Under the pieces are notes generated by a model. The model saw only the letters and a program-made list of their open reading frames with translations. It ran no database searches and was not told where the DNA came from. Made by a program: the position numbers and the translations under genes. This document shows positions 32,279 through 47,842 of a DNA stretch of 64,000 nt, in pieces. This DNA is from Rutstroemia sp. NJR-2017a BVV2 (lineage: Eukaryota; Ascomycota; Leotiomycetes; Helotiales; Rutstroemiaceae). The DNA lies in contig NJPS01000046.1 of the NCBI GenBank assembly GCA_002946415.1, positions 1,860,001 to 1,924,000 on the forward strand. Direction: 5' to 3'. Each line of letters opens with the position of its first letter. Position 1 is the first letter of the stretch.

Positions 32279-33079
32279 TCATGCATTCCCCAGTTCAATC
32301 CCATAATCCGATCCTTTCACAGTGAACGTGATCTCATTAGACGCTGGAAGTATGATCTTGGGACGCAGTGTGTGACTCTCGCTTCCGAACTGGATCTTCG
32401 TATGTTTATGATCCTACATTCAGTCAGCAGATATTCCATGCGCAAGCAAGACCTATTACCTCGAATGTCCCCCAATCCCACCATGGAACAGCACCTCCGT
32501 CAACGTGATACGTACATGTATCTTCAACAACGAACTTCTCTGCAGTCGAGAAGAAGATATCGGCGTTCATTGATGAAGTGACACTCTGGCCAGGCAAGAG
32601 ACTTACGAAAGTATGATGGTTTTTTCTAACAATGGTATCTTGTGTCGCCCAGTCAATCGGAAACCCGCACTCCTCGTCACTGTCATCACCACGCATACCA
32701 CTCCCTTCGGCTGATTCGCCATAAATCATCATTGGCTCTACGCCTCTAGAAGTATTATGGAGTAGGCTTAAGGCGGTTGGATCTGTTGCGGTGTAGTTCT
32801 TATTGAAGATTATAGGACGACCTGGTCCTGAGAAGAGTGGTGAGCTTTCACCAATATATGTAATCGTAGTTTCGAGCTTGAACTCGCTCTTCTTAGTAAG
32901 TATATCGGCACCCGACAGCGATATTGAGAAGATTGGAGTAGAAGCACTGCAGCAGATTGTTAGTGAGCATAACGCAGTTTTGTAAGATGTTACTGTTCTA
33001 ACATCTTTGTATTTTCAAGAAGCTCTGGTGTTTGAGGTTGCATTTTGCCAACGGCATCTTCTGAGAGTTCGGATGCCAT
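32279..33079 (-). CDS. Uncharacterised beta-rich protein, WWxxGT family, intact copy
   Basis: Three exons in transcript order (33079-32994, 32946-32460, 32413-32279) encode 235 residues, with phases matching at both introns. I do not recognise the family. The protein starts with a short helical N-terminus, then alternating hydrophobic patterns typical of a beta sandwich (PIFSISLSGADIL, LETTITYIGE), an acidic loop, SLLPGQSVTSS, GGAVPWWDWGTFEDHKH and the closing strand PASNEITFTV. There is no signal peptide. Two broken paralogues lie at 46.2-47.8 kb. One shares the same phase-0 intron exactly after the GTxE motif, which strongly supports these exon ends. The PGQS block followed by strands recalls the N-terminal beta domains of M35 peptidases; this is a weak resemblance only. 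An extra 5' exon from an ATG at 33152 is possible. Confidence 0.75.
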
Positions 33080-33720: not shown

Positions 33721-34625
33721 ATGCCTCGTCCCGCCTCCAAGACGGTTTTCGTTCTGGTGCCAGGCGCTTCTCAAAGCCCTGCACACTATGGCTATCTGCT
33801 TCATCTCCTCCTTACACGCGGTCACCCTGTATACTCCGCTATACTCCCAAGCACAGGAAGTAACAAGAACGTCACAGTACAAGATGACGCAGACTATGTG
33901 CGTGAACAAATGCTTCTTCCAATTCTGGACATTGAACAACACAATGTGATCATGATCATGCACTCCTACAGGTGGGAATCTCCTGTCTGTTTTGATATGT
34001 TTTACTAACTGTACAAATTGTGTAGTGGCGTTCCGGGTAGTGCTGCCGCTTTAGGCTTGGGTAAGAAAGAGCGTGCGGCCGCTGGCAAGAGTACTTCTGT
34101 CTTAGGACAGATTTACATCGCCTCGCTCTTGATCAAAGGAGGTGACGGCGGGGACATTGTTGCAGCTCTCGGTGGCCAGCTCCCACCTCATATTTCTCCT
34201 AATGTAAGTGTTATTTTACTACACCACATCATTGTTCGTATCTTATTTGGTTCTAACAAGCTGCTTAGAAAGCTGCTGGTATCCTTACCTGTGACGACCC
34301 TGCTCCACCATTGTACGGCGACGTCACCCCGAAGGAGTTCCAAGATGCTGTTGTGCTATCTACTTTGTGTCCTAGCTATGCTGCATGGCATAGTCCGTGC
34401 CCACGAGCATCTTGGGACTCGGAGGCGTTCAAGAGCAGGATTGCCTTTGTTCGTACTCTGAAAGACAAAGGTGTCCCTCTTGAGATCCAAGATATGATAA
34501 TCAAGGGGACAGGAGAGGAATGGATCATCAAGGATATAGATACTGGTCATAGCCCGAACTTATCAGCACCAGAAAAACTCTTCGATATTTTGGAAGAGCT
34601 CGGAAAGCACTTTGAGAGTTTGTAG
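33721..34625 (+). CDS. Small alpha/beta hydrolase
   Basis: Three exons (33721-33971, 34026-34203, 34269-34625) encode 261 residues, all in phase. The fold is shown by an N-terminal strand and oxyanion loop (FVLVPGASQSPAHYGYL), the segment LTRGHPVYSAILPS, the nucleophile region IMIMHSYSGVPGSAA (Ser in HSYSG, assembled across intron 1) and a late catalytic His in DTGHSPNLSAPEKL. This layout is that of single-domain AB-hydrolase-1 proteins such as methyl esterases, and the length is normal. No signal peptide is visible, so it is probably cytosolic. It lies next to the repeat peptide and UstYa-like genes and a damaged copy of its 3' end lies beyond UstYa, so it may belong to that locus. The substrate is unknown. 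Confidence 0.85.
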
Positions 34626-34994
34626 TCGGTTCATAAGAGGGATCAGGACTGGTCAATTCTTGAAGTCGTCGAGGGTGTCTTGGGAACTGGTAATGGGTAT
34701 ATAAAGCCCAAAGCTAGACTCTACATATTAACTTGAAAAGCGTGGCCAAGACTCGATAATTAAAGACGTTCTCAATTTATCATACATTCAGAGAGAAAGC
34801 AAAAAGGAATAGTAGTGATTGGTTGATATCTAACTAAAATTTGTACTATTCAGCCCTGAATGAACTTCTTCAACTTGGTGATACTCTTAAAATTCCTCAT
34901 CAACAAAACCCAGCACGAATCGAAAAAAACAGAAGACAGATGAGCTACCCAGCCTCCAACCATATCAACAACGTGCCGGGTATAACTTCCCAAC
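34626..34994. other. Convergent intergenic spacer
   Basis: 3' flanks of the hydrolase (plus) and of the repeat peptide gene (minus). No gene seen. Confidence 0.5.
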
Positions 34995-35318
34995 CTAACC
35001 CTCGTGTTCGTAAGTACCAAAGGCCGTGTTAACAACAGCGTTCTCAGGGGTAGCTGCACGAGGTCCGTTGCCATTGTGGTCGTAAGTGCCAAACGCCGTG
35101 TTAACTACAGCATTATCGGGAGCAGCTGCATGGGGTCCGTTGCCGTGGTCGTAGGTGCCAAAGGCGGTGTTAACTACAGCACTGCCGGGGGCAGCTGCGC
35201 GAGCCTCGTTGCCGTGAGGATCAAATCGGGTGTTGAGAACGGCCCCAGTGCTAGTTGTGATTGGAGCAGCAGCGGCAGCGCTCACCATGGAGGCTATGAG
35301 GAGGGCCTTGAGTTGCAT
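34995..35318 (-). CDS. Secreted tandem-repeat protein, candidate RiPP precursor
   Basis: A single exon encodes 107 residues from the ATG at 35318; the frame opens 15 bases earlier with a non-ATG codon. Residues 1-19 form a clean signal peptide (basic MQLK start, hydrophobic core, Ala-rich cleavage region before PITT). The rest is four tandem units of about 20-24 residues. The first is degenerate (AVLNTRFDPHGNEARAAAP). The next three share AVVNTAFGTY, then Asp or Glu, then His, followed in two by Gly/Asn/Pro and AAAP or AATP. There is no Cys and no dibasic Kex2 site; only single Arg or His precedes the AAxP spacer. A signal peptide plus repeated Tyr-containing cores, divergent from a UstYa-like gene, matches the layout of dikaritin-type RiPP precursors. 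The missing KR sites are a departure from known ones. It could instead be a structural secreted repeat protein. Confidence 0.75.
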   Translation of the reverse strand: MQLKALLIASMVSAAAAAPITTSTGAVLNTRFDPHGNEARAAAPGSAVVNTAFGTYDHGNGPHAAAPDNAVVNTAFGTYDHNGNGPRAATPENAVVNTAFGTYEHEG

Positions 35319-35457
35319 GATGGAAGCGAGCAATGAAGTAGACTATAAGTAGTTTTGGCTGAGTAGAGAGATTGAAACTTGAATCCTTGATTGGAATTTG
35401 ATTTAGATGTTAGATGAAGATTTCAGGTCCGTAAAAGAAAAGGAGAAAATTCCTCTG

Positions 35458-35467
35458 TTATATATAG
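35458..35467 (-). promoter_or_regulatory. Probable TATA box of the repeat-peptide gene
   Basis: A TATATA run lies about 140 bases upstream of the precursor ATG in the divergent promoter region. Confidence 0.4.
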
Positions 35468-35564
35468 TAGGTGGATCATATTCAAGTCAAACGGGATTGG
35501 TCTGGTATTCGCAGTTTTGCACTACGGAGGTTGTTAGATGATAGTTACGCTGCGGTGTATATAG

Positions 35565-35862
35565 GTGAATAGTTCCAAGGAAATCTTGATTTGCATGTTT
35601 GACTACTGGTATTATTGATCACGCAACTGCTGTCCTATTCACCATGCTGTCAGCACCTGGTCACCGATACAATAATTCTTTAGTGAATTATACTAAGATC
35701 AAATACGACATTCATGTCTGTGTTTATTAGATAATAGCTAGGTTGTGTTGAATACAGTTCCAAGAAAAACTTGATTTGTAAGTTGCCAGTGGCAATTGCT
35801 AATACTCTCAACACCGAGTCCCCGAGATAAGGGTTCTTTAGTGAATCATGCTGAGATCATCA
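35565..35862. repeat. Diverged direct repeat in the divergent promoter
   Basis: Copy A (about 35565-35703) and copy B (about 35749-35862) share, in the same order, a GTTCCAAG block, a CTTGATTTG block, a CACCGA block and TTCTTTAGTGAATYATRCT. They are offset by about 180 bases with gaps between blocks. Both copies sit between the repeat-peptide and UstYa-like start codons. Confidence 0.65.
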
Positions 35863-36109
35863 ACTGTAAAGGTCGCATCATCCGAAATTGGGGCAGACTG
35901 GCAGGAAGGATTTACCCAGAATACCCTGATCATCTGACTGGAAAGCGGCTTGATGGATAAGTCTGAATAAAACACACTTCCCACTAAACATCCTTCTCAG
36001 AAATAACCACTCACTTGTCACCCCTTTTCGAACGGCGGAGAATATCATCTTAGTACCTTTCAAGCACAATCAAGACTACTTCTGTTCTTTCAGGCGTTCA
36101 ATACCGACC

Positions 36110-37199
36110 ATGTATTCCGAAGATAAGCTTTCCGAACAAAACCTCCTTGGAGGCGATGACAGTGTAAAAGAGAAAGACGAAGAAAGTAACCAGCCTATTT
36201 CAAGACTTGCTTTATCTCAAAACTATGGAGTTCCAGCATTTATTTGGGGCTTACAATTGATATTCTTCCTCATCTCTTTGTCCCTTCTACTCAGTTCTTT
36301 CTCGCATTGCAATTCTCAGGCGGGCGTTTGTAAAGACCATATGCCAATGTACTCCCCTGCTTTGGAGGGTGTAAAGGACACAGGCTTCTATAGACGCTTC
36401 GATGGGAGCTTTTCGAAGCCCAACAGTTTCAAAGGACCGCCTAGCCCATCTATCAACGAACATTGGCATAACATTACTTATTCTACTGGTATAATACTCT
36501 TCCCATTTATGTATTATGATACTAACACTCGCAGGCGGTGTGATCAGCATTTCCGAAGAGACCTTACATGCAGTCAATGCTTCGGCTGAGTATTCCGTCA
36601 AGTTAGCTCCAGAACTTGGCGGGGGCTACATGGCTACTGTTGAATCGCTACACCAGTTACATTGTCTGGATTTTCTACGACAAGCGACCTACGAAGATTA
36701 CTACAAAGACACATGGGAGGATAGTCCGGAGATGATACGTTATCATCTTGGTAACTTCCCCCCTTGAATGGCGTAAGGTCAAGAAATGATCACTAATGAC
36801 TTCAACAGATCACTGTATAGATAATCTACGACAGAAGGCAAGCTACTTCTTCAACTCAACTCAGATTCCTCAGGACAGAGAGGCTAACAAGTTCTAGTTG
36901 ATGTGCGATGCAGATGCTGGAATCCTGACCTATGTTTGGGTCAAGGGCTGGCAAACCCCCCTTCCAGACTTCAGCGTGTATGTACCCCCTACACAACTTC
37001 AATCCAAGATACTCACAGAAGCACGTGTGAACACTGAACATACAATCTTAAACTAACATTGTTTTACTTTCACAGTCAGCACAAATGTCGCGATTTTTAT
37101 GCGTTGAAGGACTGGGTCACTAAGAATCAGCTATTTTTCGCTACAGGACAGAGTATCGAGCGTATACCTGGAGCGTCGGAACTTGACAGCCGACCTTAA
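36110..37199 (+). CDS. UstYa-like (DUF3328) oxidative cyclase family protein
   Basis: Five exons (36110-36488, 36535-36750, 36809-36837, 36898-36977, 37076-37199) encode 275 residues with every phase matching. A hydrophilic N-terminus is followed by one membrane anchor (about residues 43-65, FIWGLQLIFFLISLSLLL) and a lumenal domain. The two family-defining HxxHC motifs are present: HQLHC, then LDFLRQ, in exon 2; and HLDHC, then IDNLRQ, completed across intron 2. LMCDADAGILTYVWVKGW and PDFSVQHKCRDF close the domain. Length and order fit UstYa/UstYb, which are needed for oxidative cyclisation in ustiloxin and related fungal RiPPs and also occur in some non-ribosomal clusters. Intron 3 uses a GC donor (AAG, then GCAAGC), which keeps the motif in frame. 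It is divergent from the repeat-peptide gene with 791 bases between the starts. Confidence 0.88.
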
Positions 37200-37829: not shown

Positions 37830-38045
37830 CATAAGTACATAATCCTCGACGGACCAACAAAAGAAAGCAGTAAGAGTTGATAGTCATATTCTTACAAACC
37901 TGTCATCACAAGAAAATATCTGCGATATTTAGAAGAGCTTGGAAACGAGTTTGAGAGTTTGTAGTTTGGTATCCAAAAATCAGAACTAGTCGATCTTTTC
38001 ACGCATTGAGTGTCTTAAGAATTGGTGACAGCTGGTGAATTGTGC
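37830..38045 (+). pseudogene. Relic of the 3' end of an alpha/beta hydrolase gene
   Basis: The stretch follows the last part of the hydrolase gene at 34475-34700. The clearest blocks are ATAATC, the GGTCAT/AGTCAT block, and CGATATTTAGAAGAGCTTGG, which parallels CGATATTTTGGAAGAGCTCGG. Both end with GAGAGTTTGTAG, and the similarity continues into the 3' untranslated region. The copy has gaps and early stops (TTG became TAG in the ILEEL motif), so it codes for nothing. It implies that a second hydrolase copy once lay beyond the UstYa-like gene. Confidence 0.7.
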
Positions 38046-38697: not shown

Positions 38698-40769
38698 TTA
38701 TTTCAGGCTCATTAGCCCTTGAATACATCTTTTATAAGCTGGCAATGGCAAGGGCTTAGTTAGCACATCTGCCAGCGTATTCTCGGTACTACAGTATGCT
38801 ATAGTTGCCTTCCCATAAGCTACTAAGTCTCGAATATAGTGGTACCGAACCTCTATATGCTTAGTCCTGCTGTGAGCTACAGGGTCCTTAGATAGTACAA
38901 CACAGCCCTGATTGCCACTGAATATAGGCACCTCTAGGTGCTCTCCCAGATAATTAGGCCTTTCTAGCTCCTTAATCAATGCTCTAAGCCATTGCCCCTG
39001 CTTACTAGCCTCAGATAGGGCTATGTATTCGGCCTCAGTAGTTGACAGGCTAACACAGCGCTGTGTTACTGAATTCCAGGTGACAGACCCACCTAATAAT
39101 AGGTACAAATACCCTGAAATTGACCTTCGATCAGTAGTATCGCCAGCATAGTCGGTGTCACAGTACCCCTGTAATATAGGCTTCCCTTGGCCTATATTGC
39201 CGTACTCTAGGCAGTATCCCTGGATGCCAATTAGGTACTTCAGCACCCGTAGGATAGCATTTCAGTGCCTGATTACTGGCGTGCTACAGTGCTGGCTTAG
39301 TTGCCCTGCCGTATAGGTAATATCAGGCCTAGTACCCTTAGTACACCATAGAAGGCCCCCTACAGCGCTCTGATATAGGGCTTGATCAGCCGGAGGCTCA
39401 TTCTCAACCCCTTTAATTAGGGTGTCCCGATCTGCCATAGGGAGGTTTATAGGTTTAGCTTCCCTGAGCTTGAACCTGGAGATTAGGTCCTTGATATAAG
39501 CCCCTTGAGCCAGCCTTAAGGTTCTTGCTTCTCTGTTTCGGGTCACTTGTAGGCCTAAAATCATCCCTACATCTCCTAGGTCCTTAATTTGCCATAGGCT
39601 TGAAATGCCCTCAATCACTTCCTGTACCTCCTGCAGTACAGGGCCTAATATGAGCATATCATCGATATATAAGCCTATTAGTACGCCTGTTTCAGGGTTC
39701 CTGAACATGCTCGGATCACTATATAGGGGCTGGAAACCTAGCTTCTTAAGCCCACTACAGGCTTCGATATACCATTCTCTGCCTGACTGCTTGAGCCCAT
39801 ATAAGGGTGCTTTTAGCTATAGCACCTTTCCTTCAGGGCATCCTTCTAGGCCTAAGGGAACCTTGGCATATATAGTGGCATGCAGTTTAGCCCTTGGGTA
39901 GGCGCTAACTATATCCACTTGCTTGATTTCTAGGTCCTTATATGCCCCTATAGCTAGTAATACTCTTAGGCTCTCTTGTCTGACTGTAGGGCTGAAGGTC
40001 TCTAAAAAGTTATCTCCAGGCACCTGGCTAAAGCCTTGTGCAACTAGCCTAGCCTTAAAGCGATCGATTAGGCCTGTAGGGGTGCACTTGACTGTAAATA
40101 CCCATTTAGTGCCTACAGGCTTCTTTCCTTCAGGGAGTACAGCGTATTCCCCGGTACCTAAGGCCTGTAATTTCGCTAGTTCATCCTTAATTGCCTCCTT
40201 CTAGTAGGCTCCCCATATAGGGTCATTTATTGCCTCAGTATAGCTCTGGGGTATATTAACCTTTTCGGGTGCTAGTAAGGCATAATTCCTAGGTTCTCTA
40301 GCCCGTAGTACCCTTCCTTAAGGGAGTTCTTGGGCCTGTAGAGGTTCCTGAGCCTGGGGGGGTTCCTGGTGATCTTGAGCTTCAATGCCATCTAGGGTAT
40401 TATCCCCCCTAGCTCAAGATTATCAGGCCCTTCAGGCTCACTTAGCTCACTTAACCCTTCCGGCTCATCTGGTTCAGTCAACTCAGAGCTTTCTAAGCCC
40501 CCTGGGCCAGCCATTTCTAGGCTCTCTAGGTGGCTAGTATCCACTATAATGGTATCTCCTTCAGGCAATTCAGCCTCTTCAGGGCTGCTTATTTGCTGGG
40601 TTTCGGGGGTTTCCAGCTTAAATGGCTGATTCTCGACGAATCTAGGTGCTGTAGCTAGCACCACTTTATTCGATTCATAGTCGTACAGTCTATATTGCCT
40701 ATCTGTGGGTATGTAGCCTATAAATACCATTTTCCTAGTATTTGGCTCGAGCTGGACATCGAGATACAT
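38698..40769 (-). mobile_element. Ty1/copia retrotransposon relic (pol 3' part)
   Basis: On the minus strand the order is: the end of the integrase region (KMVFIGYIPTDRQYRLYDYE, about 40.7 kb); reverse transcriptase (GTKWVFTVK, RLVAQGF, FSPTVRQESLRVLLA, then LYIDDML, the YxDD-type active site with Ile); and RNase H (GYCDTDYAGD, SLSTTEAEYIALSEA, HSRTKHIEVRYHYIRD). This integrase-RT-RNase H order defines copia elements. The gag, protease and core integrase are missing. Several in-frame stops sit at expected Trp or Gln positions (40202, 39817 and 39262 areas), with one frame change near 40.3-40.4 kb. Most stops are G-to-A or C-to-T changes, consistent with repeat-induced point mutation. It cannot encode a working polyprotein. 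Confidence 0.9.
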
Positions 40770-41477
40770 ATGGTTTGTGTTGTTTGGGCCGATCTCTGAG
40801 TTTGATGAAAACTGTCAGTTAGCTAGCCTCTGACACAACTTATTAAAAACGAGGGAGCATATGGATCAATAATTGTGAGGTTCTAAGACTGAAAGGAAAA
40901 CACTTACATATTGGACCCCAGCGAAATCATGCGCGTTGCAGAGTCGCTCCTCTCCACGACTGGGGACTGCACCAAACTCATGAGTCATGACTTTTATAAC
41001 TGGTATTATAGTAGTTGCTACTATTTACCGATGACATGAATGTATTAGCTGCGGTTTTGATCATGCCGTTAAGTGTAATCGGGTCATCGTAAAAACTTGA
41101 CTCTATTTCGACACCGAGCTCGCGTTTGACTAAGCCCTCTTCATCTGCCACCCACTCGACGTCCTTGATGTATGCTTTTCCCGTGTTGCAGGAAGTATAT
41201 GTGGATGCCAGTGACACCGGAGTAGTGGATGGTGAAGCGATAGCATTGGACAGCGAAGTGTAAACGGGCTCCAGTAAGTTGTCCCAGGTTTACGCTGTTC
41301 TGATCCTTTTCTGCCGAGAGCGTCTGAGGAGTTGAAATTATCATTGAGTCGCAACGCACACTCTATGATGGTCTGCGTGCCAATTTTGAAGGCCACGGTC
41401 ATGTGAGGTTGGTGTTCGGGGCCTGGAACCTGGAAAGTTTGCGAGCGCCGATCTGCCGTTGCGGTTGTAGGCTGTGG
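40770..41477. other. Uncharacterised stretch between transposon and HET gene
   Basis: Minus-strand frames at 40978-41217 and 41130-41402 overlap in different phases. One reads VEWVADEEGLVKRELGVEIE and then a Ser/Asn-rich tail, which looks like real protein sequence. I could not join them or name a family. It may be the 3' part of a decayed gene. Confidence 0.25.
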
Positions 41478-43712
41478 TCAGACAATAGAGAGCGTACACC
41501 AGCCTTCCTCGTCCCGAGACTCAAATTCCAACCAATCTTCGTTCTTGATCTGCCAGAAGTCCTCGTAGACAGACTCTCCCAGCCCTAGGCTGTTTCGAGA
41601 GATCGTCACTGTGCCATACCTGCTGAACTGCCCTTTCTGAGTCCCAGTTGGAAGAAGTAGTAGACAGATCATGGAGTGACTTGGGACGACCATGGGAAGG
41701 CAGTGAAACTTCAACGATGGCGGCTTGCAGTCCAGCGTAATCTCAATGCTGTTCCCAGAGCTTGTCGTGCCGTCCAACTGGTAGCTCCAAGTAGAGCCAT
41801 TGCAGAAAACACTGTAGTGGTCGTCTTTCCACTCTGGTAATATCTCCAGTGTCGCAAGTCTGCCAATGACTCGTAGCGTGCCTCCTGTCAAGGCACCCAT
41901 CTTGTCGTCGGTTACACTGTCGACGCGGCAGTCTATGATGCCTACAACCGCGCGGCTGGCGGCATAGTCGTCCTCTGTATCACTTTCGCTTTCTGTATCG
42001 GAGTCGATAATGTTAGAAAATACGGGCGGCAACCTCTTCCGTATATCGTAAGACGTATCAAACGTTGTTTTGGAGACAACGGGCTCCTCCAGACAAGCCC
42101 ACGACCACGATGGCGCACGATAGGGGCTGGGGCGAGGAGGCAAGTCCTCAGGCCTGATGTCATAAAACTGTCTTGCGACGTTCCAGCAGAGGTCCGAGAT
42201 CATCCATCTCCCCCAGATGCCAGCAAAGTAGTCGGATCCCAGAGCCCCAGCCATGAACTTGGAAACCCCGGACAGGGCCACCAACTTGTCCGTGTGGAAG
42301 GTGAAGGCCTTTCCGGTATAGTCTCGGAGAATCCTGGACCAGAACTGAATGTACCTGCGCTCCTCTTGCTTGCTAATTTTCCTTCTTCCGGCTTCGTGGT
42401 TCGCTTCGGCGTCTGTGCTGGCATCTACTCCCTTGCTGCGGCCAAAGGCCCTCCACTTCGCGGCAGGCGGGTACTCGAACGGAGAGCTTGGGACGCCAAA
42501 TGCGGCCTCTTCACACGCATCTACGGTGCGGCACTGCCAAAGCACCTGTTTTCCGGCAAGATGAAGCATTCTCGGTGCCAGTAGCGTCTCCTGGAGTACC
42601 CAGCCTCTCGATAACAGAGGCAGGTTTGTAGCATATGGCCTGAGGATGTCCCAAATGTCCTTGGAATATATCCCGAAAGTGCTGTTCTCGAAGTTGTCCC
42701 AAGCCGTTTGGACCACGCACGACTGCGAAGGAGGAAGCTCCCTTGGAGGAAAGCAGCCAGCGAGGCTGTCTGGGGCCGCTGTCGCGGCTATATTGATGGT
42801 GCTGTTCATGTACACGCTGCTCATGAGTGTCGACTCTGCAAACTAGTCGTCTTTCGAGTCCTGGATGATGCATAATGAATCGATCTAGATATAGCCAATG
42901 CCGAGGTATCGTGCGGCCAGGATCACGTCCTGAAAGGTCTGTCCGAGATCCGAGATATCGATGCCCTGCTGGAGATCGAATGCAGACTTTGAGGTTAACT
43001 GCATTGTATGAGATGCTTTCTTGCCCCAACAGTGACTGATGGTGGCATATCGTGAGGCGTCGGTTTCCTGCTTCGGGTTCACCAAAAGCCGGATCTTTTT
43101 TGGAGAGGGGGATCCAATCTGTAGAAGCCGACTCGGGATGACTTTCATATCCTGGGCCGACTTCGATGGCTTGCATCTTTCGTGCTTTGTCAAACATCGG
43201 TGTAGCCATTCTTGTGCAGTCTTCATGCTAGGAGTCCAGGCCCCGAGATCGGGCAGACTTTCAGAGGGACCACCATCCGGGATGTCGTCTTTCTCATCAA
43301 CCGGAATGCGAGTGAGACGGAACTCCTCAAAGGTATAACTGTGGTACGCCTCAGCCGGCTCTCTAGGCTCAGGCCGGTCCCGGCCGAACATGACCATGAA
43401 GTTCAGCGTTGCCGGGCCGGAATGATTTCCAAGGAACAAATGATACCTCGTGGAGTACTGCGGTGATACATAGCCGGGGTCGACACGCGGGACATTTTCG
43501 AGCCATGTGATATCGCCCTGATCACTAGGCGGGTTGCGACAAGAGATTGCCCACAGCTTGCGGCAGATAGGACAGTTTTCAAAAGCCGCTTTCTCAAGTT
43601 GCTCGCGATAGCTGTGGTGCGGAAATGGCGGGTAGACAACGCCTTGGGCAGATAACTGTTTTACGTTGGTATGTCCTTCGAAGATGCGCCGACACGCTTT
43701 GCACAGAGCCAT
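41478..43712 (-). pseudogene. HET-domain gene with two nonsense mutations
   Basis: One uninterrupted frame of 744 codons runs from ATG 43712 to the TGA at 41478, except for two TAG codons at 42887-42885 and 42845-42843. The N-terminus has CKACRRIF and CPICRKLW pairs. The HET core begins with YATISHCWG (about residue 222) and continues YLGIGYI, stop, IDSLCIIQDSKDD, stop, then SSVYMNSTINIAATA. Both stops replace the two Trp residues that are nearly invariant in HET domains, each by TGG to TAG. No frameshift is present in 2.2 kb, so inactivation looks recent. HET proteins trigger cell death or growth arrest when incompatible fungal strains fuse. The C-terminal half (about 300-744) is the variable part of the family. 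If translated, only the first 275 residues would be made. Confidence 0.88.
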
Positions 43713-44389
43713 CGTGACTGCCAGAGGGAGACTGCGGCTGGCTATTGGGCACCTGGGCTCTGCACGAGGACTCAGGTCGTCTCGGGCAGAAGAATGAGGT
43801 GCGAGTCGTGATCTATTATAACAACGACGGACAAACGGACTAGCTGGATCCCGGATTTGATACCGTCTGCGTTGGGTAAAGTATTAGGAAGTCGAAGAAG
43901 TGAAGTTCTTCAGCCCATATCGCCCAATGCCCGAAACGAATATGGTGGCTAAAGTTCCCGGGTGCGGGGCGTGGAACAGCACAAGCCAATCGCTTGACGC
44001 ACAAATTAGCAACACCCATAAGAATCATGGCAGCCTACTTAGTATCCGGGATAAATAAACCCTCACCCTGTATTTTCAGTAGATTCTCCTCCAAAAAATT
44101 GAACATATCTGCTATTTCATTCCAACCGCCAAGTACGAAAGAGGGTTGACAGGGGGCCTCATCTATAGCTGGAGGCAATATTTCTATAGAATAGACTGAT
44201 AGTTTCGAATACTTTGACTTTCCCAAAAACTTCCTGGATCTGTGAGGTTGGTTAGATTTGCAATCATCAATGACTACGCTAAGGATAAGTCAGCTCATGG
44301 TATAGTCTCATGCCTAGTTTGCCTAGGGGTAAGAAATAAATGAGACCCCGACAGTTGTACCTTGTTTGCTTGACGCAGCGCTCGTCCTA
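43713..44389. other. Spacer upstream of the HET pseudogene
   Basis: Contains the HET promoter side. A minus-strand frame at 44035-44226 (GGWNEIADMFNFLEENLLKI) could be a 3' exon of the peptidase-like fragment that follows, but I cannot support the join. Confidence 0.3.
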
Positions 44390-46150: not shown

Positions 46151-46794
46151 GTGAGATTACTGATCCCTTCTCTTAGCAGTTTTGCTGATGAGATAAGAAA
46201 CAATCATGACTTCACACCACGGATAAGACTCGATATCAAGACCGACAATTTTCTTGTTCGAGATTTGCCTTTCTATATTCACTTCTGGTTCACTTCTGGT
46301 TCACTCTCTTGTCCCCCACACCGAACTCCGATCTTAAATCTATTCTAGTAAATAAAGCGCCGCTTTCTTCACTTGCTCGCGGCCAACTACGACTTGCCCA
46401 CTCGAATCATGGCTCCGAGTTTATTGATATCGCAGAAGATTTGATCTTTTACGCTCCTCGAACTCGTACCACAATTGGCAGTGATTTCAGGATCACGGAT
46501 GAAGACATCACTGAGATTCCCTTCGATTGGCCATTATTGGTGCGAGTAGAATTGTCAGAACTGTGCCGTTACCGACTAAAAGCAGGAATGAGCTACAATC
46601 TAGTCTGGCTTGGTGGTGATGAAATCGAATGGTGGGGGTGGGGGACGTTGCTAAAGCGCTGTGGAGAACATGTGCATATTGAGGCATCCGATGCAGATTC
46701 ACACGCGACACTGATTGTGTCTAACGATACGGCTTTTAGGATTGCGGAGGATACAGATGACAACCAGCTGCAACCCACGTCAAAGGGTCCTTGA
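46151..46794 (+). pseudogene. WWxxGT family paralogue broken by an 11-base duplication
   Basis: The coding trace starts near 46205 with RIRLDIKTDNFLVRDLPFYI, which parallels PIFSISLSGADIL in the intact copy at 32.3-33.1 kb. It then shifts frame at 46278-46299 and continues to TAG-free sequence ending at 46794: ITEIPFDW, LKAGMSYNLVWLGGDEIEWW, then GWGTLL and SHATLIVSNDTAFRIAE. The shift is exactly explained by two adjacent copies of TTCACTTCTGG; with only one, both halves lie in one frame. No ATG is present in frame at the expected N-terminus and the phase-0 intron of the other copies is absent here. It is probably a dead gene. Confidence 0.65.
46278..46299. repeat. Perfect 11-base tandem duplication
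   Basis: TTCACTTCTGG occurs twice without a gap, followed by a third partial TTCACT. It changes the reading frame of the WWxxGT paralogue by 11 bases. Confidence 0.95.
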
Positions 46795-46867
46795 GTGTGA
46801 ACGGATGTAAGAGCAGCAATTAACCCCCAAGGCTATGAAACAGACTCGCTGACAATACACCCCAGCC

Positions 46868-47842
46868 TTAGTTCTCCGATTGTTTCAGTATCGCTTTCGG
46901 GTCCCGACGTTATTCCTGGTAGGAACGACAGCAAAACCAAAAAGACAATCACCTATCATGGAGAAAGCCCACTTTTCTCATCGAGCCGTCCCATCACCCT
47001 TACTGCAATACTCCTGGGCAATCGTCGAAGGATATATAGCCTATACCGTCACACCTCTAAAGGTCTCGAGCTTATGGAACCTGTCTTCGAAAAAACATTC
47101 CTTACATGTTCGAATGCTTTCTCAAGCGATGAGGAGCACGAGGAACCAGACGAAGATGCTGCTGCTGAGGGAAATGATGTTGCCGATGGGAATGATGCTC
47201 GGGGAAATGATGCAGCTGCTGCGGAAAGTGATGCTGCAGGCGAAATCGGAATTGAGCCCGGAAAAGATAATGACGCACAATCTTTGCAAGTTCAGGATCC
47301 CACATTCATCGATACCGCACAGTCCTCGCAAGACAATGGCGCTACATCAACCAAGAATGAACTGCCCTTACAAAATGATGGCTCTACACACATCCACGGT
47401 GATCAGCCTCAACGTGAGGGAGATGGATCGGGCGACGAGAACGAGGTAAGCGACGAGGAAGAGGAGGACGACGAAAACGAATTCCTAATGACCTGATCCG
47501 ACTACGAATACAATGTTGGAGACAACCCATTCGGCACCTACGCGACTCTATGGCCCGGCCAAAGTCTTACCTTCGACGTGGGCCCCGAACGTCTAAGATG
47601 CACCGATGAACTAAAGGATGGTGAGACGTATACTTTTCGCTACGATGGAGGAACTGTTCACTGGTAGGGTTTGGGCACGTTAGAGGTACGATCTCCTACT
47701 CGGATGCGAATTATCTTCTAACTCTATCCTACAGGATCACAAGAGAACCAGAATCTTTGGCGATACCGATGACAGCCACAGAGTGCGTCCGAGGACCCCA
47801 GTTCCAGCGTCGAATGAGATCCAGTTCACCGTTCAGCGATAA
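46868..47842 (+). pseudogene. WWxxGT family paralogue with two nonsense codons
   Basis: The trace opens PIVSVSLSGPDVIPGR and KTITYHGESPLFSSSRPI, closely parallel to the intact copy, and continues through an Asp/Glu/Ala-rich insert (about 47100-47480) with GGGAATGATG-type repeats. A TGA at 47494 sits where the intact copy has Trp (FPIDW). After it come LWPGQSLTFDV, ELKDGETYTFRYDGG and HW, then a TAG at 47665 in place of the second Trp of WWxxGT. The intron (47686-47734, donor GTACGA) lies in phase 0 after GTLE, exactly as in the intact copy. The last exon is DHKRTRIFGDTDDSHRVRPR and PASNEIQFTVQR. The upstream start is not found. Confidence 0.75.

Follow-up and report, generated by a model that had tools for sequence, protein, structure and literature searches.

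The locus described here raises the question of whether a short repeat protein and a UstYa-family protein, encoded head to head in Rutstroemia sp. NJR-2017a BVV2, work as a pair, and whether the repeat protein belongs to one of the known classes of fungal peptide precursor. The window, that is, the whole stretch of 64,000 nucleotides that was analysed (contig NJPS01000046.1, 1860001-1924000), was considered together with the rest of the genome, with related proteins and with the literature. As set out below, the divergent genes are probably a minimal UstYa-modified RiPP pair, the cores of which would be modified by UstYa and released without a dibasic site.

The repeat protein and its relatives

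The precursor gene (34995..35318, minus strand) was read as an intronless frame from the ATG at 35318 to the stop ending at 34995, encoding 107 aa with a hydrophobic N-terminus followed by four repeat units. The initial annotation had claimed three Tyr-containing repeats in a protein of 107 residues, and three exact copies of AVVNTAFGTY were found at residues 47-56 (core 1, 35151..35180), 70-79 (core 2, 35082..35111) and 94-103 (core 3, 35010..35039), respectively, all on the minus strand and with spacings of 23 and 24 aa. A degenerate fourth unit, absent from that annotation, lies upstream of the cores (AVLNTRF, residues 26-32; 35223..35243, minus strand); it reads AVLNTRFDPHGNEAR, is preceded by the hydrophobic Ala-rich start and lacks the T-Y end, which is found in the other three of the four units. 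With three 10-aa cores and the degenerate unit, the protein has at least three tandem repeats of at least 8 aa. The linkers between the cores, DHGNGPHAAAPDN and DHNGNGPRAATPEN, vary in residues and length. The Ala-rich, hydrophobic N-terminus passed a crude hydropathy rule, which is not a signal-peptide predictor, and the protein may be secreted. No Pfam match was obtained for the precursor at E 0.1, and the genome search returned it as a single copy.

The repeats were compared with shuffled sequences. After shuffling of the residues following residue 18, any 5-mer occurred three times in 18 of 100,000 shuffles, and the real protein carries a 10-mer three times; a chance repeat was thus ruled out. 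Five nucleotides vary among the 30-nt cores, all at silent third positions, and five random changes kept the peptide intact in a fraction of 0.0005 of 200,000 trials. Since the linkers vary in residues and length while the cores differ silently, the core of the precursor appears to be kept by selection.

Two related proteins were found. With the natural precursor sequence, a search of about 5.8 billion proteins, in which only proteins of up to 1.75 times the query length were listed (the 188 aa of P0085 being just over), gave a single match at E 0.1, P0001, which covers 27% of the query at 97% identity and is encoded on a contig of 1116 bp. One frame aligns its start with that of the precursor (28 of 29 residues) and a second frame aligns its repeats (26 of 32); this close relative's copy is therefore frameshifted, misassembled or spliced. 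With the query lengthened by its own repeats, two proteins were obtained at E 10 among the best 7,997 candidates scored, namely P0001 and P0085, the latter encoded on a contig of 29 kb and with an E value of 4.4e-9 that rests on the lengthened query; the back-search with P0085's own letters is the cleaner test. When the genome was searched with the last 114 aa of P0085, the precursor ORF was returned at E 3.2e-12 and the sole other row stood at E 3.1. Recent duplication of the precursor was ruled out by its single copy in both the forward search and this back-search, and a chance ORF was ruled out by the silent-only variation of the cores together with the existence of P0085.

The 114-aa tail of P0085, which looks like a short secreted protein, contains four cores (AVVNSRFATY, AAVNSRFATY, AVVNSRFVTY and AVVNTRFATY), all four with the T-Y end. 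Across both proteins A1, N4 and F7 are invariant in eight of eight units and T9-Y10 is present in seven of eight, the exception being the degenerate unit of the precursor. The P0085 linkers contain VER, ETR and GAR, with one Arg in each of the three, and no dibasic pair occurs in the tail; the KK carried by the predicted 188-aa protein lies ahead of the Met taken as the start. The conservation of the core in this diverged second precursor supports the reading of a precursor plus UstYa.

The UstYa-family gene and its surroundings

The UstYa-family gene (36110..37199, plus strand; 275 aa) was modelled with five exons at 36110-36488, 36535-36750, 36809-36837, 36898-36977 and 37076-37199. Its frame is open only with the four modelled introns, the third of which (36838..36897, plus strand), modelled from sequence, is of the GC-AG type, holds an in-frame TAG and has a CTAAC sequence before its end. 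The spliced protein aligned without a gap across the GC-AG junction with 11 relatives, and a broken gene was ruled out, as the intron removes the TAG and the protein is continuous with its relatives. Against PF11807 the spliced 275 aa gave E 7.9e-55 and 186.5 bits (cut-off 25) over positions 15-220 of the 220 in the profile, and both HxxHC motifs of UstYa that had been claimed for the protein are in place, as HQLHC at 166 and HLDHC at 197.

In the protein search 83 entries were listed at or below E 0.001, the top one being 67% identical over the whole length; among the best relatives are proteins from Aspergillus, lichen fungi, Calogaya, Cudoniella acicularis, Hypoxylon trugodes and Nemania serpens. 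The best-scoring other UstYa match in the genome reached 38% identity across about 120 residues, so that the protein, at 67% identity to other genera, is nearer to foreign proteins than to its own paralogues. In the AlphaFold model of the relative P0002 (68% identical; mean pLDDT 75.4, pTM 0.57), one long helix at 40-69 would fit the membrane anchor, as expected. The comparison of this model with PDB folds gave 0 matches at E 0.001, and the sequence search of solved structures likewise gave 0. No relative of the UstYa protein was confirmed in the viral and prokaryote contigs scanned, and none of the precursor in the viral contigs scanned.

The spacing of 791 bases given earlier for the head-to-head genes was reproduced, as their start codons are separated by a shared upstream region of 791 bp (35319..36109, no strand). 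Within it imperfect direct repeats were found at 35571-35599/35756-35784 (29 nt, 86%) and 35644-35701/35802-35859 (58 nt, 76%), and no CGG...CCG sites. The neighbouring alpha/beta hydrolase of the initial annotation is also present (33721..34625, plus strand; Abhydrolase_6, PF12697, E 1.1e-14), convergent with the precursor and 369 bp away from it; related hydrolases are present elsewhere in the genome, and its suggested role as an accessory enzyme follows from adjacency, its sole tie to the pair. Beyond the UstYa gene, at 37897-37965, there is a copy of the hydrolase 3' end (34557-34626; 81% over 70 columns), left behind by a second hydrolase or by a rearrangement.

The Pfam scan of the window covered 20 selected ORFs or spliced models, a subset of its exons. 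Among these 20 no tyrosinase, methyltransferase, P450, S41 peptidase or transporter was detected, in line with the earlier statement that the first three are missing nearby. A GMC oxidoreductase was found at 54.3-56.1 kb, about 17 kb from the pair, and an ERG4/ERG24 protein was also identified by Pfam in the window. Remains of a Copia-type retrotransposon (38698-40814, minus strand; RVT_2 at 39265-39816) begin about 1.5 kb past the UstYa gene. A HET-domain protein at 41481-43883 was read in two minus-strand frames scoring 25.2 and 20.2 bits, of which the latter falls below the cut-off; an intron or a frameshift interrupts it between the two. Two proteins in opposite orientation and without a Pfam match, at 32424-33014 and 46210-47496, look alike by eye, with common stretches such as ISLSGPD / VSLSGPD and TITYHGES / TITYIGES. 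The introns, the Copia-type reverse transcriptase, the HET domains and the ERG4/ERG24 protein fit a filamentous fungus, and the relatives of the UstYa protein fit an ascomycete.

Known precursors, missing dibasic sites and the release of the cores

Ring closure in ustiloxin and asperipin-2a is reported to need UstYa-family proteins (PMC6514808), and the need for UstYa homologues in ring closure is also stated in the KEP survey (PMC7329392). In ustiloxin and phomopsin, the dikaritins with YAIG, YVIG and YVIP, a repeat precursor likewise stands beside UstYa-family genes and the core holds Tyr. Their clusters differ in carrying several UstYa genes, a tyrosinase, a methyltransferase and others, none of which was found here, and their precursors differ in a Tyr-x-Ile core and in Kex2 sites between the repeats, neither of which was found here. 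Asperipin-2a, with the precursor AprA, a single UstYa homologue AprY and the core FYYTGY, is alike in its small gene set and repeat precursor (PMC6514808). The asperipin cluster differs in its reductase and transporter, neither being seen here, its core sequence is unrelated, and its precursor is classed among the Kex2-processed ones.

The widest comparison is with the 7878 KEPs described from 1461 strains (PMC7329392), in which a DUF3328 gene was reported near 1758 (22%), most often next door, and as the most frequent type of gene next to KEP genes. The present precursor resembles these KEPs with DUF3328 neighbours in its hydrophobic N-terminus, at least three repeats over 8 aa, Tyr in the repeat and the UstYa gene next door; Tyr is given as commoner in repeats with a DUF3328 neighbour, at 65.6% versus 38.2% (PMC7329392). 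It differs in that KEPs are defined by KR, KK, RK or RR between the repeats (PMC7329392), and no dibasic [KR][KR] pair occurs across its 107 aa. This survey, the largest published, demands these pairs, so the precursor would not be counted in it. Repeats with dibasic Kex2 sites between them are the description given for dikaritin and KEP precursors elsewhere (PMC9769878, PMC10512285); this defining feature was looked for and not found, which places the precursor outside both of these classes. The dikaritin-like reading put forward in the initial annotation stands in its architecture only, the pair probably working like a dikaritin system, and fails in the dibasic Kex2 sites, a lack on which that annotation is silent.

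In the literature searched, the six core strings did not occur, and no UstYa-paired precursors without Kex2 sites were announced in titles or abstract openings. According to PMC6339444, Kex2 sites are present in "almost all" of the UstYa-linked precursors that an earlier study described from Aspergillus, a wording by which exceptions may already be published (Nagano 2016). UstYa clusters without any repeat precursor are reported from lichens (PMC12048977).

The lack of dibasic sites in the diverged P0085 as well looks old when the two proteins are compared, and this bears on a decaying system, in which the precursor would have lost its cleavage sites and be becoming a pseudogene beside a still intact UstYa gene. 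The degenerate first unit and the GPH linker, the frameshifted copy P0001 in the close relative and the number of full cores, only three, are what such decay would leave; the shared absence of dibasic sites in the P0085 repeat region and the silent-only core differences oppose it, and we consider decay very unlikely.

How the cores would be released was then read from the linkers. One Arg is held by two of the three precursor linkers, where it follows Pro (GPR) or Ala (EAR) and precedes the XA/XP dipeptides AA-AP or AA-TP, and the third has His in its place (GPH). Cleavage after a single Arg has been seen in expressed KEPs (PMC9769878), and the residues reported to be tolerated by Kex2 before Arg (Arg, Thr, Pro, Glu or Ile; PMC8528282) match GPR in the precursor and VER and ETR in P0085. 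The succession of Arg and AA-AP or AA-TP is compatible with STE13-type trimming of XA/XP dipeptides (PMC6339444), a signature described in that source as absent from the known precursors of toxic cyclic tetrapeptides and epichloecyclins. Single-Arg cleavage followed by dipeptide trimming is thus weakly suggested as the likeliest route; an Arg also lies inside the P0085 core, and single-Arg cleavage could cut there. That Arg counts against single-Arg release and, with two diverged repeat regions free of dibasic sites, would agree with cores that are crosslinked and never excised, the product being the entire secreted protein with several ties between its side chains. Such an outcome is most improbable, as the dikaritin accounts consulted describe proteolytic release and no uncut product, and one Arg stands in every one of the three linkers of P0085 and in two of the three of the precursor, in the precursor followed by XA/XP dipeptides.

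For the UstYa-modified pair, the following course is proposed. The 107-aa protein would enter the secretory pathway, and each AVVN-[ST]-x-F-x-T-Y core would be modified by the membrane-anchored UstYa-family oxidase, most plausibly by tying Tyr to the side chain of the Phe three residues earlier. Release of the cores would then fall to a protease for which a dibasic site is not required. Most likely, a kexin- or yapsin-type cut would be made after the single linker Arg, and the AA-AP or AA-TP dipeptides would be trimmed thereafter. The Phe-Tyr tie over four residues is a guess from F-x-T-Y, the constant aromatic pair in both precursors; an aromatic residue three before Tyr is also seen in asperipin FYYTGY (Y-T-G-Y; PMC6514808), the likeness being one of spacing only. 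In asperipin-2a the ether bonds are described as running from Tyr side chains to beta-carbons (PMC6514808).

UstYa genes and repeat frames across the genome

The genome (43.4 Mb, 79 contigs) gave 79 exon-level UstYa matches, some of them on seemingly duplicated contigs: contigs C25 and C74 showed identical matches at identical coordinates and C50 and C74 mirrored ones, which suggests duplicated or chimeric contigs. In 23 other UstYa stretches, a subset of all UstYa places in the genome, a tandem-repeat precursor-like ORF was found in eight and none was seen in 15, versus none in three random stretches of 9 kb used as the control. The eight (L010 2177-2437, L011 6998-7375, L013 3367-3750, L015 6513-6863, L023 9428-9901, L024 7773-8768, L025 1757-2020 and L026 7434-8594) were chosen by eye from the repeat-scan rows, L013 at the 60% threshold; rows in other frames, a Ser/Pro-rich frame of L015 (1478-2716) and a low-complexity row (EREK) in the window were left out of the count, the stretches L013/L014 and L021/L022 overlap, and L011/L012 adjoin. 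The remainder of the window held no repeat ORF besides one low-complexity row. In the excerpts, each of the eight ORFs carries 1 to 6 dibasic pairs (one KK pair in L010) versus 0 in the precursor. A motif in print, DADAATXYV[A/V]D (PMC6339444), is similar to the unit of L026, DADNAIVYPADAKR. L010 also holds, at 2087-2587, a two-unit repeat, DDDDAIAYAWFNEDGTEK, with a single Arg followed by APADG or TPADG; it may be a further precursor that is cleaved non-canonically. Candidate UstYa-linked peptides seem to be numerous in this fungus, and the apparent recurrence of the precursor-UstYa arrangement elsewhere in the genome supports the reading as a pair.

The same survey bears on whether the repeat protein is instead an unmodified secreted protein or linear peptide precursor (a wall component, an effector or a signal) with a UstYa neighbour that is coincidental or acts elsewhere. 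The 79 UstYa matches leave room for chance neighbours, the precursor lacks dibasic sites, and a DUF3328 gene is reported absent near 78% of the published KEPs (PMC7329392). XA/XP after Arg moreover recalls linear pheromone precursors (PMC6339444): in the alpha-pheromone precursors such dipeptides, the STE13 targets, likewise stand before the repeated segment, as AA-AP and AA-TP do here. The precursor differs from them in having no KR and, by eye, in its core, and a DUF3328 neighbour is described for almost no pheromone precursor (PMC7329392). With a Tyr-ending core conserved in the diverged P0085, the head-to-head genes and repeat ORFs in eight of 23 UstYa stretches versus none of three random ones, we hold an unmodified protein to be unlikely.

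Several observations weigh against the UstYa-modified pair itself: one linker has His and another has Arg after Ala, Arg lies inside the P0085 core, the P0001 repeats are out of frame, the repeat region is free of dibasic sites, the usual mark of such precursors, UstYa matches are many in the genome, 15 of the 23 UstYa stretches surveyed show no repeat ORF, and UstYa-family proteins are also described to catalyse other chemistry (desaturation, hydroxylation and chlorination). Beyond the pairing, it is a real possibility, though short of a probable one, that the locus represents a separate UstYa-paired lineage with the core AVVN-[ST]-x-F-x-T-Y, no dibasic sites and a Phe-Tyr tie, the product being released by single-Arg cleavage and dipeptide trimming or kept as an uncut crosslinked protein. 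The precursor and P0085 would be two diverged members of this lineage, which surveys with a filter for dibasic sites would miss.

The main value of the finding, and what is new here, is the second, diverged precursor P0085, which is likewise without dibasic sites. Both forms of the core, NTAFGTY and NSRFATY, provide exact targets for mass spectrometry, and this type of precursor makes it testable whether UstYa enzymes act before, or without, proteolysis. If the reading is true and a conserved dibasic-free precursor type stands beside UstYa, some of the cyclic peptides that fungi make are being overlooked.
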